From a candidate division FCPU426 bacterium (GTDB lineage: Bacteria; Oederibacteriota; Muellerivitia; Muellerivitales; Muellerivitaceae): a DNA stretch of 38,155 nucleotides. The stretch is taken from assembly GCA_030041545.1 (NCBI GenBank), contig JASHNQ010000062.1, forward strand, positions 1 through 38,155. The letters run 5' to 3'. The position numbers and the translations under genes were made by a program. A model generated the notes under the pieces. It was not told where the DNA came from. It made no database searches and was given only the letters and a program-made list of their open reading frames with translations. Shown here piece after piece: positions 976-12,464 of the stretch; position 1 is the stretch's first letter, and every line of letters begins with the position of its first letter.

Positions 976-3900
976 TTAGAACCCCAGGTTCACCCCGCCC
1001 GATAGGTTTTGTTCCGCGTAGTCGGCCAGGCCTACCTTCCCCTGGTATTGGACGAAGGCGTTAAGCCCCTTTTCGAATCCCAAATTCAACCCGGCCCCGA
1101 TCACCGCCGCGTCGGTCCCCGTTTCCGGCCCGCTCACGGTAAAGGTTCCGCCGCCGCTGATACTGCTCTCCAGGCTGTCCAGGTTGCCCTCATAAACGTG
1201 CTCCCAGGCGGCACTGAGGGCCGGGGATAGGCGGATGCCGCCCAAATCCCAGGTGCGGCTAGCCGCCACCCCCAGGTCGCTGTTCAAATAACCTTCGCCT
1301 TGCGCCCCGAAAACCAAGGGCGCCAAGGAGCCTGACTCATTGAATGCGTTGATATTCACCCCGGTGTACTGCCCCGACACGAAAGGCCCTACCTTCATCT
1401 GGTCCACCTTCCAGTCGTACCCCGCGCCCAACTGGCCCGAGATCATCAGGCCCTGGGTGCTTCCCACCGCAGTTCCGCCTAGGGCGTTGCGCTGGGTGGT
1501 GTAGCTGTTGACCCCGCCTTCGGCCATGGCCTCCGCGTGGAACGGCCCTTCGTTAAACCCTCCATAAAGGCCTACCTGCCCGCCCGTGCCGTTCACCGCG
1601 CCGGTGGATTGGCTGGTGCCCGACTGGCTGTAACCCAGCAGCAGCCCCCCCGCCAGGTTTTTGGAGAAGCGGTAATCGAGCCCGGCGACCATTCCGCCGA
1701 TGGAATACTGATAGCCCGGCGTGTTCGAGTCGCCGGTGACGGTCCCGAAATTGCCCAGGCCTTCGGCGAAGGCGCCCCAGCGCTGGGGCTGGAGGCCCTG
1801 GGACATCCCCGCTTCCTCGGGGACCGGCACATCGGCCGCGAAGCGCGGTCCCTCCCCGTTCCAGGAAACGTCGTTGGAACCCAATTCGGAACCGCCGAAC
1901 AGTTGGAACAGCCTCTGGTTCACCAGCCCCGCCTCGGCCTGGGCGGTGGCGAAACCCATCGTATACAAGGGCGTCAAATTCGCGGGCGAGATTTCGTTAT
2001 AGGCACCTGGCAGCGACGCATCCTGCATGGTATCCAGGGCCTCGATCAGGTTCTTGTTGCCCCCACCGGCGTTCAGCTGGTCCAGGGCCGCGCCCAGGGT
2101 TTTCTGGTTCGGCGTCAGGCCCAGGGATTCGAAAGTCGGCCCGGACACCTCCAGCAGCACCTCGTTCGTTTCGTAAACCAGGGACACCGAATCGGCCGAT
2201 ACCCCGTTTAACAGCGTGTTGAAAGTCCCGTATAAAGTTCCCGCGGAAAGGATGCCGAAACTTTCCGTCCCGTGCACCTGGAAGAAGGAACCGTTGCCGG
2301 GGGCCAGCTGCAAGTCACCCCCCAGGGTGGCCGCGCCGGACACCCTCAGTCCGTCCCAGCCGCCCGGCGTCGCGTAGTCCAAGGATAGCTGCAAGGTCGT
2401 CCCGGACGACGCTTGGTTGTAATACCCGCCCACCGTCACCGCCACCGGCTGGGTGATGGCCAAGGTTCCCCCGGAAACCAACAAGCTGCCCGTGCCAACC
2501 GCGTTCACGTTTCCCAACCCCAGGAACCCGCTTTCCAAAGTCGTGCCGCCGCTGTAACGGTTGTCTCCCGCCAAGGTCAATGCCCCGCCACTCACCTCGA
2601 GCCCCTCGGCCCCCGCGATCGTCCCGCTAAAATAGCCGTTTTGAAGGCTCAAGTTTCCCGCGCTTAAGCTAACCGACCCGGCCCCATCCAAGGTGCCAAT
2701 CGTCACGCCCACGCTGGTCCCGGTGGCGTTCAGGGAATCAGTCGAGCCCATCTCGACCAGGCCGATGGAAACAAAAGCGGAGCCGTTGGAACCGGCGCTC
2801 CCAGCCACGTTCCCGGTTCCGCTGCTGCTCCCGTTCCCTCCGGTGCCGCCCGTGCCGCCGTTGATATCGAGACCATCATCTGTTTGCATTACCAAAGTGC
2901 CTGCCGTGATGGACGCACTGCCGCCGTTTCCGCCGCCGCCGCCCGTGCTGTTGTTTCCGCCCGAACCGGCCGCCCCCGCGACGCCGTTCTCCCCGCCCGT
3001 GCCGCCCGCGCCCCCCTGGCCGCCCGCGCCCCCCTGGCTGCCCATTCCGCCATTTCCGCCTTGGCCCCCGGCGACCTCGAAAGTCACCCCTGAATCCATC
3101 AGGAGGCTTCCGAACGAGACTCCCGCGTTTCCGCCGTTCCCACCGGCACCGCCGGTGTCACCGCTTCCGCCGGTGCCGCCGGTACCGCCGGTGCCCCCCT
3201 GGCCTCCCGTGCCGCCCTGGCCGCCGGTACCGCCTTGGCCGCCCTGGCTTCCCACTCCCCCGGTTCCGCCCTGGCCCCCGGTGATATCCGCGAGTGTTCC
3301 GCTCCCGAGGACTAGGGTGGAGGCGTCCGCCAGCGCGTTGCCGCCAGCACCGCCGGCACCGCCCGTGCTGTCATCGGCGCCGTATCCCCCCATGGCGCCG
3401 GTTCCGCCCTGGCTCCCCGCGCCGCCTGTAAGACCCGTCCCCCCGTCCCCGCCCAAGCCGCCGTCCTGGCCCTGCCCGCCCGCACCGCCGGTGATAGTAA
3501 AGGATGTGGTGACTCCCGGCCCCAGCCCCAGCGTTCCCTGGCCCAGGGTAAGATAGGCGTTGCCGCCCGTGCCGCCATCGCCGCCCGTTTCCTGGTATCC
3601 GCCGGAATTGCCAGCGGTATTGGAGCTTCCATTGGAGCCCACATCGCCGTACCCGCCTAGGCCACCCGCGCCTCCGGCCACAGAGAAGAAAGAGCCCGCG
3701 TTTTGGAAAAGGGTTCCGATGGTCACATCCGCGTCATTCCCTTGGCCCCCTGCGCCTGCCGCTCCCTGTTGTCCGTTGGACCCGCCATCGAAGGCTTGGC
3801 CGCCTTGGCCGCCGAAACCGCCCGCTCCACCCTGGCCGCCCGTTGCCGTAAAAATGGCTCCTTGGTTCAGGGTCACGCTGGTGGCCGATAACTCGGCCAG

Positions 3901-6651
3901 TCCGCCTTCACCGCCGGTGCCGCCCGTGCCTCCATCGCCGGCATTGCCCCCCGTTCCGCCGCTTCCGTTTGATCCGCCATCCTGGCCCGAAGCTCCCGCG
4001 CCTGCGGTTCCACCGTTTCCCCCATTACCCGCGTTGCCTCCTTGGCCCCCTTGGCCTCCCGTAACATCAATTGAAGTTAAGGTGGACACCCCGCCGGCTC
4101 CCAGGCTGATTGAGCCCACTGTCAGGCTCGCGTTCCCGCCCTGGTACCCATCCCCGCCCGCGCCACCGTCGCCACCCGTTCCGCCGTTATTGCCGTCGCC
4201 GCCGTCGCCCGGATAATCCAAGTAAGCGCTGGGTGTCCCGCCGCTGCCCCCAGTGCCCCCAGTGCCGCCGTCGCCCCCCTTGCCGCCCGCCCCGCCCGTT
4301 CCGCCCATGACCGACACCGAAGCCCCGGAGTTCAAGGCAAGGGTCATCATGGAAACACTGGCCGTTCCACCGGACCCGCCCTCAGCCCCGCTTCCGCCAA
4401 CCTCGCCGTTGCCGCCCGTGCCGCCATCGCCGCCGTTATTGTCGTAGTAAGAGCTGTCGTTATAGGCCCCCCCTTGGCCGGAACTTCCCGCCCCGCCATT
4501 GCCGCCGCTTCCGCCCGCGCCGCCCGCCCCGCCAGTCCCACCGGCCGCGTTCAGGGACGCGCCGTTATCCAAGGTCACTCCAGTGGCGAGGAACTGCGCG
4601 TTTCCGCCCAAGCCTCCACTATAACCCCCGGCCCCGAGTCCGCCGTTGCCGCCATCCCCGCCGTTGCCACCGTCGCCGTTTCCAATACCGCCCGCGCCGC
4701 CGTTTCCGCCCGTGCCGCCGTCACCGTTGCCGCTGCCCGCGCCACCGGTCCCAGCGGTGAGGTCGAACTCCGAATCCTGGCCCAGGAAAAAGCTGTTGAA
4801 GGTGGCGGAAGCCGCGCCCGCGTTGCCGCCCACATAGCCGTTGGTCCCCACAGCCGCGGAATTGTAGCCGACGGCCCCATCCGCCCCGCTGACGGGCGTG
4901 TCGGTACCACCGTCGCCACCTGCCCCGCCATTGCCTCCATTCCCCCCTGCACCCAATTGCCCGCTGTTTCCGCCATTGCCACCTGTTATTTGGAGGGTGA
5001 CATCCGGAGCGGTCCAAAGGGAGCCAATGGAAACCCCCGCGTTTCCGCCTTGCCCCCCCTGCCCAGCGCCGCCGTTATTTTGTCCGCCCCCGGCCGCCCC
5101 CGCGTATCCTCCCACGTTTTGGCTTCCGCCGCCCTGGCCGCCCGTTCCGCCGGTCCCGCCCGCCCCGCCGCTTCCTCCGTCGCCAGCGCTGCCTCCCGTT
5201 ACGGTGACGCTGGAACCCGAATAAAACGTCGCGGAAGAGGAAACCAAAGAGGCCGTTCCGCCGTTTCCGCCCGGGCCGCCCGGGCCCCCGTAGCCCGCCG
5301 TGCCCCCCATGGAAGCCGGAAAACCGTTGGAGGTGAGCTCGCCCGTATAACCCGCCGCCCCGGCGTTACCGCCATTACCGCCGTTTCCGCCATCGGGGCC
5401 GAACCCGCCGTTCCCGCCCTGAACCGTGAGAAAAGTGGGCATGGTCACTCCGGCCGAACCCATGAGCAGGTTTTGAAAAGCCGCCGTGGCGCTCCCACCC
5501 GCGCCCCCCACCCGGAGACCGTCCGTGTCCCCGCCGCCGTTGGCGCCGTTCCCTCCGGTTGAGCTGTAGCCGCCGTAAAAGTCGCTCGAATCACCCCCAT
5601 TGCCGCCCGACCCACCGCTGCCGCCCGTGCCGCCCGGGGCGGAGTTGCCGCCGTTGCCGCCAGCCACGGCAACACTTTCGTTGCTTCCCAAGAGCGAGAG
5701 GGTACTCACGGAAAGGGACGCAGTGCCCCCGTTTCCTCCCCACCCGGGATCCCCCCCGTTCCCACCGTTGCCGCCCGGAGTGCCAGTTCCAGCGTTGGCG
5801 TAACTGCTGTCGCCCCCTGAGTCCCCGTAATCACCATTGCCGCCCCCCTGGCCCACGGCGCCGTCGCCGCCCGCCCCACCGACCACGCTGATGGCGACGT
5901 TGGAGCCAGTCAAGACGGCTGAGTTGGCCGAAATAGCCGCGTTTCCGCCGTTGCCGCCGGACCCACTGTAGATGGCGTCACCGCCGTTGTCGCCGCTTCC
6001 GGTAAAAGGCGAATCCCCTTCCACGCCCGGGCCGCCTTGGCCGCCCTCGCCTCCCACCGCCAGAAGGGAGGAACCCGAGTCCAACGTGACGGCGGCGCCC
6101 ACCGTTATGTAGGCGCTGCCACCGAAAGACCCCGTGGTGTTCTCGCCCAAAGCCGCGGCGGCCGTGCCAAAGGTCACACAGAGTTGCGAGCCCGAATCCA
6201 GGGTCAGTGAATTGGTGATGGTGAATTCCGCGCTGTCGTTGGTGTCCGTGGAGATGGTACTGGGGCCCGAGTTGGAGAGAGTGAAGCCCACGTTGGGCCC
6301 CAGGGTTAATTGGCTGAAGCTGAAGGCGGTGGACCCGTTGTTTCCATTATTCCCAACGACCCCAAAAGTGACTCCGCCTGTGGGGCCCAGAAGGGTGATG
6401 GGCTGGGTACCGTTGCCGACGAATTGAGTGAGGGTGATGGAGCTGTTGTTGGAAATGTCGAGTTGGATGTTGCCACCGTTGGCGGTGGCATCGATGGTCG
6501 TGATGGCCGCGCCCAAGGAGCCCGCGCTGTCATCGCCATTGGTGTCGGTGACGGAGGCGGTTTGGGCGTGAAGAGCGGAAGCTAGCAGGAAGGCGGCAAG
6601 CAGGAAAGGGATTCCAGGAAAGGCAAATCGTTTTTTTATACAGGCGGTCAA
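976..6651 (-). CDS. Giant glycine-rich (PGRS-like) autotransporter, type V secretion
   Basis: This 1,891-residue protein starts at a TTG (6649-6651) preceded by GGGGAGAG. Residues 1-29 are a signal peptide ending near ALHA. From about 165 to 1310 the passenger alternates glycine-rich blocks (GGNGG, GGTGG, GGAGG) with short strand-like segments such as ASLSVSTLSLLGSN or ASVSMMTLALNSGA. I count about 16-17 such modules, spaced roughly 60-75 residues. Residues about 1355-1400 (LTLAGDNRYSGGTTL) match the autotransporter-associated beta-strand repeat. Residues about 1500-1585 form a linker, and about 1623-1891 form a 12-stranded autotransporter barrel (WGAFAEGLG to a terminal GVNLGF, ending in Phe). 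It should be exported by Sec, inserted in the outer membrane and display the passenger outside. Only two cysteines are evident. The ligand is unknown; adhesion is a guess from the family. Confidence 0.9.
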   Translation of the reverse strand: MTACIKKRFAFPGIPFLLAAFLLASALHAQTASVTDTNGDDSAGSLGAAITTIDATANGGNIQLDISNNSSITLTQFVGNGTQPITLLGPTGGVTFGVVGNNGNNGSTAFSFSQLTLGPNVGFTLSNSGPSTISTDTNDSAEFTITNSLTLDSGSQLCVTFGTAAAALGENTTGSFGGSAYITVGAAVTLDSGSSLLAVGGEGGQGGPGVEGDSPFTGSGDNGGDAIYSGSGGNGGNAAISANSAVLTGSNVAISVVGGAGGDGAVGQGGGNGDYGDSGGDSSYANAGTGTPGGNGGNGGDPGWGGNGGTASLSVSTLSLLGSNESVAVAGGNGGNSAPGGTGGSGGSGGNGGDSSDFYGGYSSTGGNGANGGGDTDGLRVGGAGGSATAAFQNLLMGSAGVTMPTFLTVQGGNGGFGPDGGNGGNGGNAGAAGYTGELTSNGFPASMGGTAGYGGPGGPGGNGGTASLVSSSATFYSGSSVTVTGGSAGDGGSGGAGGTGGTGGQGGGSQNVGGYAGAAGGGQNNGGAGQGGQGGNAGVSIGSLWTAPDVTLQITGGNGGNSGQLGAGGNGGNGGAGGDGGTDTPVSGADGAVGYNSAAVGTNGYVGGNAGAASATFNSFFLGQDSEFDLTAGTGGAGSGNGDGGTGGNGGAGGIGNGDGGNGGDGGNGGLGAGGYSGGLGGNAQFLATGVTLDNGASLNAAGGTGGAGGAGGSGGNGGAGSSGQGGAYNDSSYYDNNGGDGGTGGNGEVGGSGAEGGSGGTASVSMMTLALNSGASVSVMGGTGGAGGKGGDGGTGGTGGSGGTPSAYLDYPGDGGDGNNGGTGGDGGAGGDGYQGGNASLTVGSISLGAGGVSTLTSIDVTGGQGGQGGNAGNGGNGGTAGAGASGQDGGSNGSGGTGGNAGDGGTGGTGGEGGLAELSATSVTLNQGAIFTATGGQGGAGGFGGQGGQAFDGGSNGQQGAAGAGGQGNDADVTIGTLFQNAGSFFSVAGGAGGLGGYGDVGSNGSSNTAGNSGGYQETGGDGGTGGNAYLTLGQGTLGLGPGVTTSFTITGGAGGQGQDGGLGGDGGTGLTGGAGSQGGTGAMGGYGADDSTGGAGGAGGNALADASTLVLGSGTLADITGGQGGTGGVGSQGGQGGTGGQGGTGGQGGTGGTGGTGGSGDTGGAGGNGGNAGVSFGSLLMDSGVTFEVAGGQGGNGGMGSQGGAGGQGGAGGTGGENGVAGAAGSGGNNSTGGGGGNGGSASITAGTLVMQTDDGLDINGGTGGTGGNGSSSGTGNVAGSAGSNGSAFVSIGLVEMGSTDSLNATGTSVGVTIGTLDGAGSVSLSAGNLSLQNGYFSGTIAGAEGLEVSGGALTLAGDNRYSGGTTLESGFLGLGNVNAVGTGSLLVSGGTLAITQPVAVTVGGYYNQASSGTTLQLSLDYATPGGWDGLRVSGAATLGGDLQLAPGNGSFFQVHGTESFGILSAGTLYGTFNTLLNGVSADSVSLVYETNEVLLEVSGPTFESLGLTPNQKTLGAALDQLNAGGGNKNLIEALDTMQDASLPGAYNEISPANLTPLYTMGFATAQAEAGLVNQRLFQLFGGSELGSNDVSWNGEGPRFAADVPVPEEAGMSQGLQPQRWGAFAEGLGNFGTVTGDSNTPGYQYSIGGMVAGLDYRFSKNLAGGLLLGYSQSGTSQSTGAVNGTGGQVGLYGGFNEGPFHAEAMAEGGVNSYTTQRNALGGTAVGSTQGLMISGQLGAGYDWKVDQMKVGPFVSGQYTGVNINAFNESGSLAPLVFGAQGEGYLNSDLGVAASRTWDLGGIRLSPALSAAWEHVYEGNLDSLESSISGGGTFTVSGPETGTDAAVIGAGLNLGFEKGLNAFVQYQGKVGLADYAEQNLSGGVNLGF

Positions 6652-6910: not shown

Positions 6911-7447
6911 CTATTTTACGGGATTACGCCAGTGGTTCATTTCGGCTTCCGTGACGGGGGCCCAAAGCCTGACGGCCAGGGGATAATTCTCCACGAAAAC
7001 CACCAGCGAAGCGTCGGGCCTGCGGTTCGGCCAATCCCTTGGAATGGATTTCTTGAACGACGCGGGCGGAAGCTTGCGGCTATCCAGGCCCCAAAATTTC
7101 GACACGAACCGGTGCCAAAAAAGGATGAAGAGTTCCACGAAAACGTCCCTTGGAATCGACGGGGGTTTGCCGCCCGTGGCCGCCTTTTGAAGCAGGGCCT
7201 CGAATTCGGCGGCCGTCCGGATCACCAAAATGCCGGTGGAGGGCTGGGTGAACATCAATCCCCTTTCCAAAGACAGGGGCTGGACCTCGTCGTCCACTCC
7301 AATGGCGTTTTGCGCGGATAACCCGGTCCAACTTTTGAGCAACGGCTGGAAGAAATCGTAGAGTTCCTGCGTGTTGGGTATTTTGACCGGGGACAATTCA
7401 GGGCCGGATGCCGCGGAAGACTCGTAAGCCAATTTTGTCATTTCCAT
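6911..7447 (-). CDS. Unrecognised 178-residue soluble protein
   Basis: I do not recognise this family with confidence. The ATG at 7447 has a GGAGG ribosome binding site about 8 bases upstream. There is no signal peptide or membrane segment. Residues 25-110 look mixed alpha/beta and include a repeated strand-like LMFTQPSTGILVIRT. A long aromatic helix follows (VFVELFILFWHRFVSKFWGL, about 113-132), then a basic stretch with PPASFKKSIPRDWPNRRPDA and a strand LVVFVENYPLAVRLW. The order helix-with-E/L, basic loop, strand faintly recalls CheC/CheX-type phosphatase folds, but I see no diagnostic ExxN motif. It sits alone between the autotransporter and the XRE/nucleotidyltransferase pair, with 259 and 243 non-coding bases on either side, so it is probably monocistronic. 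Confidence 0.6.
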   Translation of the reverse strand: MEMTKLAYESSAASGPELSPVKIPNTQELYDFFQPLLKSWTGLSAQNAIGVDDEVQPLSLERGLMFTQPSTGILVIRTAAEFEALLQKAATGGKPPSIPRDVFVELFILFWHRFVSKFWGLDSRKLPPASFKKSIPRDWPNRRPDASLVVFVENYPLAVRLWAPVTEAEMNHWRNPVK

Positions 7448-7690
7448 AGCAATGACCTCCAGGAAAAGTAGTTAATGGAGTTTCTGGTTTTCGCTGAAGG
7501 CATTCAGGGGGGAGGGCGCTTTGAGACCCGGTAGCAGCCGGGAAATTGAGGTGTTGATATTAAGAATAAATCCCAAATGATCAAAAATGATAGTGTTAAT
7601 TATGATTTAATTTGTTTTCCGTTTACCTTTCAAAAACTAAGAACTTCTAACAAAAACCGTGTTTTTAAGAAATATTCCCTCAAAAGGATT
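7448..7690. other. AT-rich intergenic region
   Basis: This 243-base gap lies downstream of the nucleotidyltransferase gene and upstream of the 178-residue gene. Positions 7555-7690 are markedly AT-rich compared with the flanks, which fits a horizontally acquired module border. AATCC/GGATT (about 7688-7699) forms a tiny stem at the end of the nucleotidyltransferase gene. No reading frame, tRNA or strong terminator is evident. Confidence 0.4.
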
Positions 7691-8314
7691 TCAATCCTTG
7701 GATTTAGGAAGCCGGATTCCCGCGCTCCGGTAAAAGACGTCCAAGACTTTGGCGGCCGAAAACCCCTTGCCCCAGATATCCCGGCCATACGACCCCAGGA
7801 AATTCTCGACTTGCCGGCGGAACAACATTAAGGCGGAAGACTTGGGGCTCAACCGGAGGGCCTTTCCCCACAAGCCGGCCAGACGGCCCGCCGGGGTCCT
7901 TTGCTTTCTAAAAACCGCCACCATGTCCTTGACGTCCAAGTCGATATACCGCGTCATTTTCCCAATGGACCAATATTCCGGGTTCAAGACCCTCACTTGA
8001 ATGCCCCCAAATGTCTTGAACGGCCGGCAATGCTTCCGGTAATCCAAATAAGTGACCTGGCTCCACCGGTCGATGTCCTCGCTGTAGTTGGTTTGGATGC
8101 CGGTCAACCTCCTGTTTTTTTCCACGGCGGATTCAAATTCGGCCCAATGGCGGGGGTCACGGCTTTTGAGGCTGACGGCAAAATCGATATCCATGCTCGG
8201 ACGGATGCTGCCCATCGTGGAACCGGCCGCCGCGCCGGTGAGGTAAATGCCCGCCCGGCCCTTGAAATCCCGGGCGACCCCCTTGAAAAAACGCTCCACT
8301 TCCATGGGATTCAT
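7691..8314 (-). CDS. Nucleotidyltransferase-fold protein, putative toxin of a TA pair
   Basis: This 207-residue protein has the minimal nucleotidyltransferase signature near the N-terminus: GAAAGS (about 27-32) followed by the metal-binding pair Asp42-x-Asp44 in RPSMDIDFAV. A third acidic residue could be Asp91 in VTYLDYRKH. The rest is helical and basic. This layout is shared by AbiEii/MenT-like and related toxin nucleotidyltransferases, which transfer nucleotides to tRNA or protein targets; the target here is unknown. Its ATG overlaps the stop of the upstream XRE gene by 4 bases (8311-8314), so the two are co-translated. Alternatives are an antibiotic-modifying or housekeeping nucleotidyltransferase, but pairing with an XRE regulator favours toxin-antitoxin or abortive infection. 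Confidence 0.72.
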   Translation of the reverse strand: MNPMEVERFFKGVARDFKGRAGIYLTGAAAGSTMGSIRPSMDIDFAVSLKSRDPRHWAEFESAVEKNRRLTGIQTNYSEDIDRWSQVTYLDYRKHCRPFKTFGGIQVRVLNPEYWSIGKMTRYIDLDVKDMVAVFRKQRTPAGRLAGLWGKALRLSPKSSALMLFRRQVENFLGSYGRDIWGKGFSAAKVLDVFYRSAGIRLPKSKD

Positions 8315-8802
8315 CGTTTATTCCCCGCCCTTTGCCTTTCCGCGATCCGGTCCAGCAGGGCATGAACCTCGATCGAGGAACGGCCAGCCCTCAGGGAAAG
8401 CCAGGCCCTTTCCGCCCTCCGCCCAACGCGGGGCTTGCCGCTTTTGCCGGTTGCCGCCCGCAGCCGGTTTCGCGCCAAAAGCCCGGCCCTTTCGGATAAA
8501 AGCCGGTGTCCGGGCTTCGGGGGCCGGCCCGCGGCAATGGATTGCGCGATGCCTTCCATGCCTTCCCGGGTGAGGACGGCCGCGTCTTCCCCTTCCTCCG
8601 GACCCATCCCGTCGGCCAGGATACCGGGACGGATATCCAAGGCATAGGCCAGGGCCCGGAGGGTCCTCAAGGAAACCTCCCTCTCCCCCCTCTCGATATC
8701 CGAGAGGTTCGGCCGGGGAACGCCCGCTTTTTGGGCCAAAGCCGCCTGGCTCAAGCCCCGTTTCAATCTCCATAAAAGCACGCAACGTCCGAAGGGCACC
8801 AT
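8311..8802 (-). CDS. XRE-family HTH protein, putative antitoxin/autorepressor
   Basis: This 163-residue protein has an XRE/Cro helix-turn-helix at about residues 9-62. The core is RLKRGLSQAALAQKAGV followed by PNLSDIERGEREVSLRTLRAL, the classic recognition-helix pattern. After a linker (63-85), residues 86-163 form a basic helical tail ending WLSLRAGRSSIEVHALLDRI, a plausible partner-binding region. The ATG at 8802 is preceded by only a weak ribosome binding site. It is the first gene of a two-gene unit with the nucleotidyltransferase, with an ATGA overlap at 8311-8314. The 16-bp inverted repeat at 8812-8827 overlapping the likely -10 box suggests autorepression. A 219-residue frame overlapping it (8318-8977) is a high-GC shadow. 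Confidence 0.85.
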   Translation of the reverse strand: MVPFGRCVLLWRLKRGLSQAALAQKAGVPRPNLSDIERGEREVSLRTLRALAYALDIRPGILADGMGPEEGEDAAVLTREGMEGIAQSIAAGRPPKPGHRLLSERAGLLARNRLRAATGKSGKPRVGRRAERAWLSLRAGRSSIEVHALLDRIAERQRAGNKR

Positions 8803-8811
8803 TTCCAGATA

Positions 8812-8827
8812 GTAGTATAATTACTAC
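8812..8827 (-). promoter_or_regulatory. Operator-like inverted repeat over the -10 box of the XRE/NTase pair
   Basis: GTAGTA (8812-8817), a 4-base TAAT spacer and TACTAC (8822-8827) form a perfect 6+6 inverted repeat, 9 bases upstream of the XRE start codon. Read on the minus strand, a TATACT -10 box (8814-8819) lies inside it, with AT-rich sequence upstream and TTTAAT as a possible -35 at 17-base spacing. Transcription would begin about 4-6 bases before the ATG, giving a nearly leaderless mRNA. Operator function is inferred from position and symmetry. Confidence 0.55.
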
Positions 8828-8918: not shown

Positions 8919-11900
8919 TTAAACCTTTGAGAATTCCTTAGTCGTGCTGGCGGGCTTGCTGGACTGCGGGGCTTCATTTCCGGACAGGATTATCTCCGTC
9001 ATTTGCATGGCGTTGTCCATCTTGGGGTAGCGGACGGCGCGGTAGCCGCGGACTTCCTCGGGCAGGTTTAAGGCCTTCTCCCACCTTTCATACTGCCCTG
9101 GGTTCGTGTATTCAAAACGGTCGACCAGGCCCCCATACCATTCCCTAAAGGCCTTTTCCCTTTTGTGCCAGGCGGGAAACAGGCGGCGCAGGAACTTCAT
9201 GCGCTTCATCAGGTTCAACATCCAATCCCGGCTTTTCAGGTCAAAGCGGATCTTCATTCCCAAAACGTCGAATTCGGGCCGGTTGAAGTGGCGGTACACG
9301 ATCCTATCGCCGGCGGCCAAGTCCACCTTGTAACGCCGGGCATCCTTCTCGTATTTTTCCGGGCGGGTCAAAAGATGGGCCACGTAAACCTCATCCTTGA
9401 TCTCCATCACCTTGTGCAGGTGCCTCACCACGGCCTTGCTGACCGAGTAATCCGAGGCCTTGGTGTCCTTTTTCATCGTGGTCATCACCCGGTCCGCGTA
9501 TTGGCGGGCATAAGCGGGTCCGCCCCATTCCATAAGGTCATAGAGCCGGTTCACGAACTGCACTCGGGTGTCCTCGTCCCCTTCCCAGGCCTTGAGGAAT
9601 TCCCCGGCCATTTCCAGGTATCTTTCGGCGCGCGCGCCCCGCAACAGGGCTGCTTTTTTCATCAAGACTTCCTGGAAGCCCATGCGGACTTCCGCTTGGT
9701 ATTTCTCGGGATGAACGGCCAAATCCCGCCCCAGGTGGAAGGCGTCGATGTTGTGCTTGGCCGCGCTGGGGCTGAAGTTGTCCTTGATGGCGTCGATCAT
9801 CTCGTTGAGCGTCAGGGGCAAGAGGCCGCGCTGGAAGGCCACGCCCAGGAGAAGGATGTTCACGAACACCTTATTGCCCAAGTAGTCCTCGGCGATCTTG
9901 CTCATGTCCGCGCCCGCGTAGTCCTTGGTGTACTTCTTGAACAGGTCGGCCAGTTGGGAGGGGTTGAAATCGTCCAGGCCCATGAGGGAAAGGATGGTGT
10001 GGGTCTTGTGGGTGTTCACCACCGAATGGGTGTATTCCTTGGAGCCGATTCGGGACTGCAGGCGGGGGTCGATGCCCCGGGCCGCCTCCAGGATGTCCAA
10101 CCCCAAAAGCAGGTCGGCCTTGCCCTGGGGCATGAGGGGCGCCACCACCTTCTTTTTCTTGGAGAAGGTGATCATGGAATAGACGCCGCCGTTCCTGATG
10201 GCGATTCCCTTCTTGTCGCAGAAGGTCACGTGGTAGCCGTGCTTCATGGCGGCCCTCACCAAAACCGCCGTGGAGCTGCCGATTCCCATGCCGCCCACGC
10301 CCGCGATATAGCCCCTCCAGTCCTCGTCGAACGGGAAAGGCTCGGGCGCCGGGATATGGGAAGGGTCGGGTAATGGGACGGCGGCGGGCTTGCGCTTGCG
10401 GATGATGGTGAGTTCCTCGAAGGCCGGGCAGGCCTTGATGCGCGTGCAGGCCATGTCGGACACGCAATAGGAAAGGTCGGTGGACATCTTGGGGCCGTAG
10501 GGGGTCTCCTCGATGGCCAGGCCCGGGCAGCCGGTGAGCCTCGTGCATTCCAGGCAGTACTCGCAGGTGTGGTCGTTGACGTTGATGCGCTTTTGCACCG
10601 GCAAATAGCCCCGCTTGGCCTTCTGGCGGGAAAGTTCCTGCCGCTTGCGGCGGTGGTAAGTGATGCCGCATTCCTTGTCCGCGATCACGAATTTCACCCC
10701 GGGTTCCAGGATCATATCCTCCAATATTTCCCGGTAATCCTCCCGCAGCTCGGGGTTGACCCTAGCGATGGAAACATCCAGGCCCTTGGTGAGGCCCCCC
10801 AGCACCTTCTCAATGTCCTGGCCGAAGGTGGGATTGCCCATGAGGTCCCTCTCCATGCCCGGATGGGGCTGGTGGCCGGTCATGGCGGTGGTCTTGTTGT
10901 CCAGGACCACGTAAAGCACGTCCTGATTGTTCTTGATGGAATCCGAGATTTCGGCCAGGCCCGAGTGGAAGAAGGTGGAATCGCCGATGAAGCACACCGA
11001 CTTGTTGGTGGAAAAGGGCGAAAGCCCCGCGCCCGTGCCGCCGCCCAGGCCCATGCCGATATAGTTGTGCATCAGGGGGCCGTTGGGGGGCATAAAGAGC
11101 AACACGTAACAGCCCGCGTCACCGTGGAAGAGGATGTCGAGGGGCTCGCGCTTATGCTTCTTCTTCATGTACTCCTTGTCCTTGAAGTCCGCCACGAGTT
11201 GCAAGAAGACCGAGGAGGAATCCCGGTGCGGGCAGCCGGGGCAAAAGGACGGAGTGCGCTTGGGAATGGACACCTCGAACATCCTGAGGCTGTCCATGAA
11301 CTGGATTTCTTTTTTGACCTTCGAGGTGGATACCTCGAATTGGGCCAAGAGCGGCGCCAGGGTCCTCATGACCACGGCGGGGCTTAAGCCCTGGTCCGCG
11401 GGAAAACCCTTCAAGTCGTCCGGAAAGGACTTGCCCCAAACCGGGGGAACCGTTTTTATTTTTCCGGACTGTTGAAGATCCATGACGATGTTCCGGACCT
11501 GGTTTTCGATGAACCGCCGTTTTTCCTCCACCACCACCAGGGTGTCGGTGTATTTCAGGACTTCCTGGACGGCTTCGGGATCCACGGGATAGGTCAGGCC
11601 CAACTTGAGGATGGGAAACTTGCCGGTCAGCCCGAACTCGGACAGGGCCTGTTCCAGGTAGGTGTAGCTGGCGCCGGCCGTGATAAAGGCAAAGGGAGCC
11701 CTGCCCTTGGCGGACAAAAGCTGGTTGACGCCCTTCTTGCGGGCCGCGGCCAAAAGCCGGGGGAACTTGACCTCCAGGGCCTCCTGCTCCAGGGGCACGG
11801 TATGGGGGGGAAGGACGATACTATGCTTGATGTCGAAGGTGGAACTGTCGATCGTGGCCTTGTTCAGGGTGGAAAAACCCTTGGGCGGCTGGTTGGGGTA

Positions 11901-12464
11901 GACCTCCACGCTGCCACCCCCCTCCGCCGTATAGGTGATGAGAAGGTAGGCGATGAAAAGGTCGGCTTCCTCGGAAAGCTCAAAGGCCAGCTTGACCCAG
12001 TCCTTGATCTCCTGGAAGGTTGCGGGCTCCAAAACCGGGATAAAAAGGTGGTCGGAAAGGCGCCGGGAATCCACAGGCACCTGGGTGGTGTCGCTCCAGG
12101 GGTCATCGCCGATGACAATCACGCCCGCCCCCTGATGGCCCCTCTTGGCCAGGGAGGCCGCCACCAAGGCGTCCGCGGCCACATGGAACCCCACGGATTT
12201 CATGACCGTAATAGCCCTTAAACCGGCCATTTGGGCGCCATTGAGCCTGGCGGCCGAAAGTGCCTCGTTATTGGCGATTTGGGCGAGGATGCCGTGTTCT
12301 TTCAGGTAGGGGGTGGCGTTGGCCGCCGCTTCGAAGACGTCCGCCACGGGGGAGCCGGGATAGCCGGTAAGCAGATTAAGGCCTGCTTCCAGCCCGCCTT
12401 TCAGGATCAGCTCGTTTCCGGTATAGGTTTCGGTGCCCTTTTCTTTAACAAATCTTGGGTCCAT
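8919..12464 (-). CDS. Indolepyruvate:ferredoxin oxidoreductase, fused alpha/beta single chain
   Basis: This 1,181-residue enzyme oxidatively decarboxylates aryl-pyruvates to aryl-acyl-CoA while reducing ferredoxin. Domains in order: pyrimidine-binding domain (about 15-200); a middle domain with VVEEKRRFIENQ (311-322); thiamine-diphosphate domain (about 405-600) with FCPGCPHR (407-414), GDAGCY (448-453) and FIGDST to LDNKTTAMTG (492-530); and a ferredoxin-like segment. The segment has Cys634, 637, 640 and 646, then 667, 673 and 679. Next are the gamma domain from GYIAGVGGMGIG (718-729) and a C-terminal helical extension (about 930-1181) found in long fused forms. The length fits the one-polypeptide family rather than separate IorA/IorB subunits. 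The ATG at 12464 has a weak AAGG site. Such enzymes are oxygen-sensitive, which suggests anaerobic amino-acid metabolism. The substrate among aryl or branched 2-oxoacids cannot be read from sequence. Confidence 0.9.
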   Translation of the reverse strand: MDPRFVKEKGTETYTGNELILKGGLEAGLNLLTGYPGSPVADVFEAAANATPYLKEHGILAQIANNEALSAARLNGAQMAGLRAITVMKSVGFHVAADALVAASLAKRGHQGAGVIVIGDDPWSDTTQVPVDSRRLSDHLFIPVLEPATFQEIKDWVKLAFELSEEADLFIAYLLITYTAEGGGSVEVYPNQPPKGFSTLNKATIDSSTFDIKHSIVLPPHTVPLEQEALEVKFPRLLAAARKKGVNQLLSAKGRAPFAFITAGASYTYLEQALSEFGLTGKFPILKLGLTYPVDPEAVQEVLKYTDTLVVVEEKRRFIENQVRNIVMDLQQSGKIKTVPPVWGKSFPDDLKGFPADQGLSPAVVMRTLAPLLAQFEVSTSKVKKEIQFMDSLRMFEVSIPKRTPSFCPGCPHRDSSSVFLQLVADFKDKEYMKKKHKREPLDILFHGDAGCYVLLFMPPNGPLMHNYIGMGLGGGTGAGLSPFSTNKSVCFIGDSTFFHSGLAEISDSIKNNQDVLYVVLDNKTTAMTGHQPHPGMERDLMGNPTFGQDIEKVLGGLTKGLDVSIARVNPELREDYREILEDMILEPGVKFVIADKECGITYHRRKRQELSRQKAKRGYLPVQKRINVNDHTCEYCLECTRLTGCPGLAIEETPYGPKMSTDLSYCVSDMACTRIKACPAFEELTIIRKRKPAAVPLPDPSHIPAPEPFPFDEDWRGYIAGVGGMGIGSSTAVLVRAAMKHGYHVTFCDKKGIAIRNGGVYSMITFSKKKKVVAPLMPQGKADLLLGLDILEAARGIDPRLQSRIGSKEYTHSVVNTHKTHTILSLMGLDDFNPSQLADLFKKYTKDYAGADMSKIAEDYLGNKVFVNILLLGVAFQRGLLPLTLNEMIDAIKDNFSPSAAKHNIDAFHLGRDLAVHPEKYQAEVRMGFQEVLMKKAALLRGARAERYLEMAGEFLKAWEGDEDTRVQFVNRLYDLMEWGGPAYARQYADRVMTTMKKDTKASDYSVSKAVVRHLHKVMEIKDEVYVAHLLTRPEKYEKDARRYKVDLAAGDRIVYRHFNRPEFDVLGMKIRFDLKSRDWMLNLMKRMKFLRRLFPAWHKREKAFREWYGGLVDRFEYTNPGQYERWEKALNLPEEVRGYRAVRYPKMDNAMQMTEIILSGNEAPQSSKPASTTKEFSKV

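Follow-up and report, generated by a model that had tools for sequence, protein, structure and literature searches.

A two-gene operon in the genome of a candidate division FCPU426 bacterium is likely to encode a chromosomal toxin-antitoxin module akin to AbiE and MenAT, its antitoxin being of another type. It lies on the minus strand of the window, by which we mean the whole 38,155-nucleotide stretch of DNA that was analysed (contig JASHNQ010000062.1), and is present once in the host genome. The first gene (8802–8311) encodes an XRE protein of 163 residues (P0002), the predicted antitoxin, recognized by its HTH_3 match, its AF2 model and its constant position upstream of the second gene. The latter (8314–7691) encodes a nucleotidyltransferase of 207 residues (P0001), the predicted toxin, assigned to the AbiEii/DUF6036/MenT kind from its AF2 model, its match to MenT1 and the Pfam scores of its relatives. 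Both genes share an ATGA at 8311–8314, the overlap reported in an earlier first-pass annotation of this DNA, and translation of the nucleotidyltransferase is probably coupled to that of the XRE gene through it. The same annotation had inferred a module related to AbiE and MenAT, in which the antitoxin is of the XRE kind and the toxin a small nucleotidyltransferase. Sequence comparison supports this reading well, because pairing is constant, the partners covary, the distribution is scattered, the promoters are of an autorepressor type, and the enzyme has the motifs and predicted fold of AbiEii and MenT.

Pairing and distribution of the module

The nucleotidyltransferase family comprised 15 members, two of which (L015 and L016) begin at a contig end. 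A survey of whether homologues always occur as a pair had been called for in the first-pass annotation; a homologous partner was found directly upstream of the nucleotidyltransferase in all 13 members with readable upstream DNA, with junctions ranging from −11 to +2 nt. Ten of these 13 partners were full XRE proteins, one (L010) was cut by a contig end, and two (L012 and L023) lacked the helix-turn-helix (HTH). With two small genes, a constant pair, a patchy distribution and a predicted autoregulatory operator, the module has the general features of a type II-like system.

Within the host phylum, homologues were present in four other genomes of 45; three of the four genomes belong to the host's own family, with homologues 55–57% identical. 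Another homologue, L002, came from a metagenome-assembled genome labelled Nitrospira sp., whose phylum held seven more clear ones, and L023 and L024 represent two further phyla. In L002, a run of 11 G within the catalytic motif (about 2999–3009 of SBBF01000075.1) interrupts the nucleotidyltransferase frame, owing either to a mistake in assembly or to slippage capable of turning the gene on and off. The module was absent from both other genomes of the host genus (G027 and G028), and in G027 other genes lie beside the same indolepyruvate-oxidoreductase-like gene that flanks the pair in the window (8919–12464). In the phylogenetic tree, from which one row in a wrong reading frame (L030) was disregarded, L006 of the host phylum grouped with L024 of another phylum and not with the window's clade (support 95/97). 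Because of this grouping and because presence of the module varies within one genus, horizontal transfer appears likely.

Acquisition had also been proposed from an AT-rich flank. The flank is real, with a GC content of 37% at 7450–7690 against 61% for the gene pair and 58% for the window, but it is weak evidence; better evidence comes from the absence of the module in the two genomes of the same genus and from its unrelated neighbors elsewhere, the surrounding genes differing from locus to locus. Beyond this flank the window carries, on the minus strand, a gene for a 178-residue protein with no Pfam match (6911–7447), which belongs to a multi-copy family with 1–6 matches per genome in 8 of the 8 host-family genomes searched. 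A gene for a protein of 1891 residues follows on the same strand (976–6651); this protein has long GGxGG-rich repeats, no Pfam match and a C terminus that looks autotransporter-type.

Toxin-antitoxin modules are often found on plasmids or phages. Searches by tblastn found no homologue in plasmids with four family members as queries or in phages with two, scans of IMG/VR gave pattern matches and no relatives, and sampling around genome G240 returned mostly genomes already covered and no new loci. The plasmid, phage and IMG/VR results bear on the earlier suggestion of phage defence, taken here as a dedicated (abortive infection) system triggered by infection. The related AbiE does confer phage resistance in some hosts (PMC3985639). 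However, phages, plasmids and IMG/VR yielded no homologue, the nucleotidyltransferase had no PADLOC match, and no defence genes were noticed in the ~1.5-kb flanks of the relatives, so that the suggestion stands unsupported and a dedicated defence role is very unlikely.

Motifs and predicted fold of the nucleotidyltransferase

P0001 matched no family in Pfam, NCBIfam or PADLOC, and searching the PDB by sequence, with the single sequence or a profile, returned chance matches only. Its match to the aminoglycoside acetyltransferase model NF000507 (E 0.09) was rejected as chance, as were the CG-1, Flagellin_IN and DUF3640 matches of its relatives. Against AbiEii (PF08843), L024 scored 24.5 bits with a cut-off of 22.5 and other relatives 15–20 bits, and against DUF6036 (PF19502), L006 and L010 scored 25.6 and 25.1 bits with a cut-off of 23.6; P0001 itself matched neither profile. 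Since these three relatives reach curated cut-offs, the family is placed with AbiEii and DUF6036 by transitivity. The Pfam search advocated for both proteins gave HTH_3 for the XRE protein and no match for the nucleotidyltransferase itself, of which only relatives cross the cut-offs. P0001 also had no NTP_transf_2 or KNTase match in Pfam, and L023 gave a weak match to NTP_transf_2 (E 0.026).

Across 13 family sequences, residues G27, G35, R38, P39, D42 and D44 were invariant, as were D80, I81, R83, W84, K119, R122, D127 and D130, and residue 40 was Ser or Thr in all 13. Motifs I and II of AbiEii were taken as hG[G/S]x9-15DhD with an Arg four positions ahead of the first Asp. The family has this arrangement as L25-T-G27-A/G28-x13-D42-I-D44 with R38, the second motif I glycine being Ala in the window's own clade; in the window, the segment from G27-A28 to D44, which includes R38 and S40, is encoded at 8183–8236 (minus strand). 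Of the GS...DxD core described in the first-pass annotation, Asp42 and Asp44 hold throughout the family, but the GS at residues 31–32 is not conserved and G27 (LTG27A) is the core glycine. Motifs III and IV are encoded at 7925–7960 (minus strand), and their four invariant residues would correspond to the motif III Lys/Arg and the motif IV DxxD of AbiEii/DUF1814 (PMC3985639). K119 and R122 show KxxR spacing, not the textbook/COG4849 consensus KLxAaxxR; the basic residue that precedes D127xxD130 in motif IV is not conserved and is present in L006. The motif II arginine is described as a feature of AbiEii/DUF1814 that other polymerase-beta-type proteins lack (PMC3985639).

An AF2 model of the nucleotidyltransferase had a mean pLDDT of 92.5, and its best PDB match, with a probability of 0.99, E 0.014 and TM about 0.4, was MenT1 as part of the MenAT1 complex. 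Being weak by E-value and TM-score, this match is suggestive, not decisive. The best-matching entries, 8an5 and 8an4, had probabilities of 0.99 and 0.95 at E 0.014–0.11, and at these values the model is consistent with a MenT-type fold that carries the catalytic residues. The corresponding residues of MenT1 are R37, T39, D41, D43, K137, D149 and D152, with D41, K137 and D152 essential for toxicity and T39 the site of phosphorylation (PMC10435456, PMC11375011). The spacing of R-x-S/T-x-D-x-D and DxxD in the nucleotidyltransferase is identical to that in MenT1 (R37-x-T39-x-D41-x-D43). R38, S/T40, D42, D44, K119, D127 and D130 occupy positions on which toxicity or phosphorylation depends in MenT1/AbiEii, S40 aligning with the MenT phosphorylation site.

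Minimal nucleotidyltransferases (MNT) may serve as antitoxins (PMC7641770), and the MNT antitoxin 8xeo was among the weaker structure matches of the model. The enzyme could accordingly be an antitoxin-like partner that silences another protein by modification, as MntA does HepT in HEPN-MNT. The closest matches, however, are toxin nucleotidyltransferases (MenT1 and AbiEii) and not MNT, and the one partner found throughout is the XRE protein, in which the HTH is dispensable. Without a HEPN partner, a HEPN-MNT identity was rejected, and an antitoxin role for the nucleotidyltransferase is extremely improbable.

The XRE protein and the shared promoter

The presence of an HTH in P0002, claimed from the first reading, is certain (HTH_3, E 1.1e-13, residues 11–60, Pfam); the Pfam matches include no AbiEi family, and those in PADLOC were generic HTH matches only. 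It is followed by a conserved C-terminal domain of ~90 residues that has no Pfam match. The AF2 model of the protein is all helical (pLDDT 88.9, pTM 0.55), with PDB matches driven by the HTH. What had been called a basic helical tail is thus helical but proves to be a conserved domain rather than a mere tail.

The C-terminal domain (residues 75–163; 8314–8580, minus strand) is predicted to bind the toxin on account of its co-occurrence with the nucleotidyltransferase, its retention in proteins that lack the HTH and its covariation. A profile of aligned residues 75–163, run against 384 genomes, gave seven strong matches, all seven of which adjoin a nucleotidyltransferase of this family; a marginal match in an 885-residue frame (G197, E 2.7e-4) was taken as chance. 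Among 11 loci, distances between nucleotidyltransferases covaried with those between C-terminal domains (Mantel r 0.73, 0/5000 permutations), a correlation to which shared ancestry contributes. L012 and L023 have lost the HTH, and an open reading frame upstream of their intact nucleotidyltransferase still encodes the C-terminal domain (1229–1504 and 1152–1493, respectively). Because the domain survives loss of the HTH beside an intact enzyme, the simplest reading is that the C-terminal domain, and not the HTH, would be the neutralising part that must be kept as long as the nucleotidyltransferase is intact. In AbiE, the C-terminal domain of the antitoxin is sufficient for neutralisation (PMC3985639), which parallels what the HTH-less loci suggest for the XRE antitoxin. 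L012 retains a promoter with a palindrome, though its protein has no HTH left to bind it.

The pair could instead be non-toxic, the nucleotidyltransferase modifying a metabolite, a protein or a small molecule such as a drug and thereby tuning some response of the cell, and the XRE protein acting as sensor or regulator. XRE repressors do have many roles outside toxin-antitoxin modules (PMC2701414), and the plasmid and phage searches that found no module fit such a role. On the other hand, neighboring genes differ in each genome, so that there is no shared pathway, the distribution is patchy, and the relatives match a toxin family. A C-terminal domain never seen alone in the 384 genomes and retained after loss of the HTH is also more in keeping with an antitoxin that acts by protein-protein contact than with a regulator, and we consider a non-toxic pair unlikely.

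Upstream of the XRE gene, a sigma-70-type promoter is predicted with the −35 element TTTACA (8837–8832; TTGACA at the same position in most relatives) and the −10 element TACTAT (8814–8809), spaced 17 nt apart on the minus strand. The palindrome GTAGTAATTATACTAC, the predicted operator, occupies 8812–8827 (minus strand) as the inverted repeat GTAGTA-ATTA-TACTAC and lies between and over these elements. The repeat noticed over the promoter in the first-pass annotation therefore exists, although alone it is not beyond chance: 9% of random 42-mers from the window and 26% of shuffles contain one as good. The same arrangement, a palindrome over a sigma-70-type promoter, was present in 11/11 loci with a readable start; compared with random stretches of the same loci it gave a Fisher p of 3e-12, which is optimistic because the loci are related. 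The palindrome itself varies in sequence, reading AATTATAGTAAATTTACTATAATT in L003 and AAATCGTATCTGATCAGATACGATTT in L011, as expected if repressor and operator co-evolve. The XRE partner probably shuts off the pair's own promoter. The XRE start codon lies 6 nt past the −10 element in the window and 6–7 nt past it in 10 of the 11 loci, which implies a transcript that is probably leaderless and starts at or next to the antitoxin ATG. With the operator over −35 and −10 and the ATG so close behind, the layout would represent a strikingly uniform, apparently leaderless and autorepressed operon.

Proposed mechanism and comparison with known systems

The sequence shows an operon with a constant pair of genes, the motifs and fold class of the enzyme, and a conserved arrangement of palindrome and promoter; from these features we infer how a toxin-antitoxin pair of this kind may work. 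The small nucleotidyltransferase would probably poison the cell through the nucleotides that it attaches to tRNA: when free, the MenT-like enzyme would hold Mg-NTP through Asp42/Asp44 and Lys119 and extend tRNA 3' ends, and translation would stop. The C-terminal domain of the antitoxin would bind and silence the enzyme, perhaps, more speculatively, by promoting its autophosphorylation at Ser40. The XRE domain would bind the palindrome over the promoter and repress the operon, transcription would begin at or next to the antitoxin ATG, and the ATGA overlap would couple translation of the toxin.

A more far-reaching proposal is possible, if rather doubtful: that XRE repressors bearing this dedicated C-terminal domain form a distinct, unnamed class of antitoxin, which is made from leaderless transcripts, causes MenT-like tRNA nucleotidyltransferases to phosphorylate their own active-site Ser/Thr, and needs only that domain to do so, as the natural HTH-less loci suggest. 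A sharply delimited partner of XRE and C-terminal domain, some natural forms of which lack the DNA-binding half, offers a clean test of how antitoxins silence such enzymes. The pair could also serve to test whether active-site autophosphorylation, proposed for MenT1 and MenT3, is general, and would allow a number of genes now annotated as "hypothetical" in little-studied phyla of bacteria to be given a label.

Toxins of the nucleotidyltransferase type come with several antitoxins that are unrelated to one another. Partners of the COG5340 and COG4861 families have been described for DUF1814 toxins (PMC3985639), as has one system of the Xre-MNT type, whose toxin resembles kanamycin nucleotidyltransferase (PMC8406773). 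In the open-licence literature we found no XRE protein with the present C-terminal domain paired with an enzyme of the AbiEii/DUF6036 type; catalogues of toxin-antitoxin systems compiled in silico may include such pairs under generic labels. The module, which occurs here and there in lineages of bacteria that are not related, is predicted to extend the AbiE/MenAT kind by a variant whose antitoxin differs.

Like MenAT1 (Rv0078B-Rv0078A), the pair has its antitoxin gene first and a small (~200 residues) nucleotidyltransferase as predicted toxin, for which MenT1 is the best fold match and which shares with it the R-x-T/S-x-D-x-D, K and DxxD residues; their sequence similarity is too low for sequence search to detect. 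MenA1, of 7.4 kDa, lacks a DNA-binding domain, whereas the window's predicted antitoxin consists of an XRE domain and a helical domain of ~90 residues, and partner families vary within the MenAT group. With AbiE (AbiEi-AbiEii, COG5340-DUF1814, type IV), the pair has in common a DNA-binding autorepressor, predicted here, upstream of the nucleotidyltransferase, operator repeats over the promoter, an antitoxin made of an HTH and a C-terminal domain, and nucleotidyltransferase motifs I and II and, less clearly, III and IV (PMC3985639). AbiEi, however, combines a winged HTH with a COG5340 C-terminal domain, in contrast to the Cro/CI-type HTH and Pfam-less domain found here, and because the antitoxin family differs the pair is not filed under AbiE. 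The AbiEii profile also has 238 positions, more than the 207 residues of the nucleotidyltransferase, and since the latter misses the score cut-offs it is not formally filed under AbiEii or DUF6036. Xress-MNTss of Streptococcus suis, a type II Xre-MNT system, likewise joins an XRE antitoxin, which binds its own palindrome-containing promoter, to a nucleotidyltransferase toxin (PMC8406773). That toxin is described as kanamycin-nucleotidyltransferase-like and toxic only once exported to the E. coli periplasm; P0001 gave no Pfam match of that type.

As regards DUF6036, two family members (L006 and L010) lie above the cut-off and most, including the window's nucleotidyltransferase, below it. Other distant relatives have different partners or none that was seen (L008 and L017). 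In L025 (2003–2353), L026 (1017–1466) and L027 (1985–2548), the overlapping upstream gene comes from another small family, with no Pfam match in L025, and probably encodes yet another antitoxin type. The distant L028 (2025–2687) has a true DUF6036 protein (73.5 bits) that likewise follows an XRE gene with an ATGA overlap, this gene being longer (220 residues) and of a different kind, which implies that XRE and DUF6036 proteins came together repeatedly or long ago.
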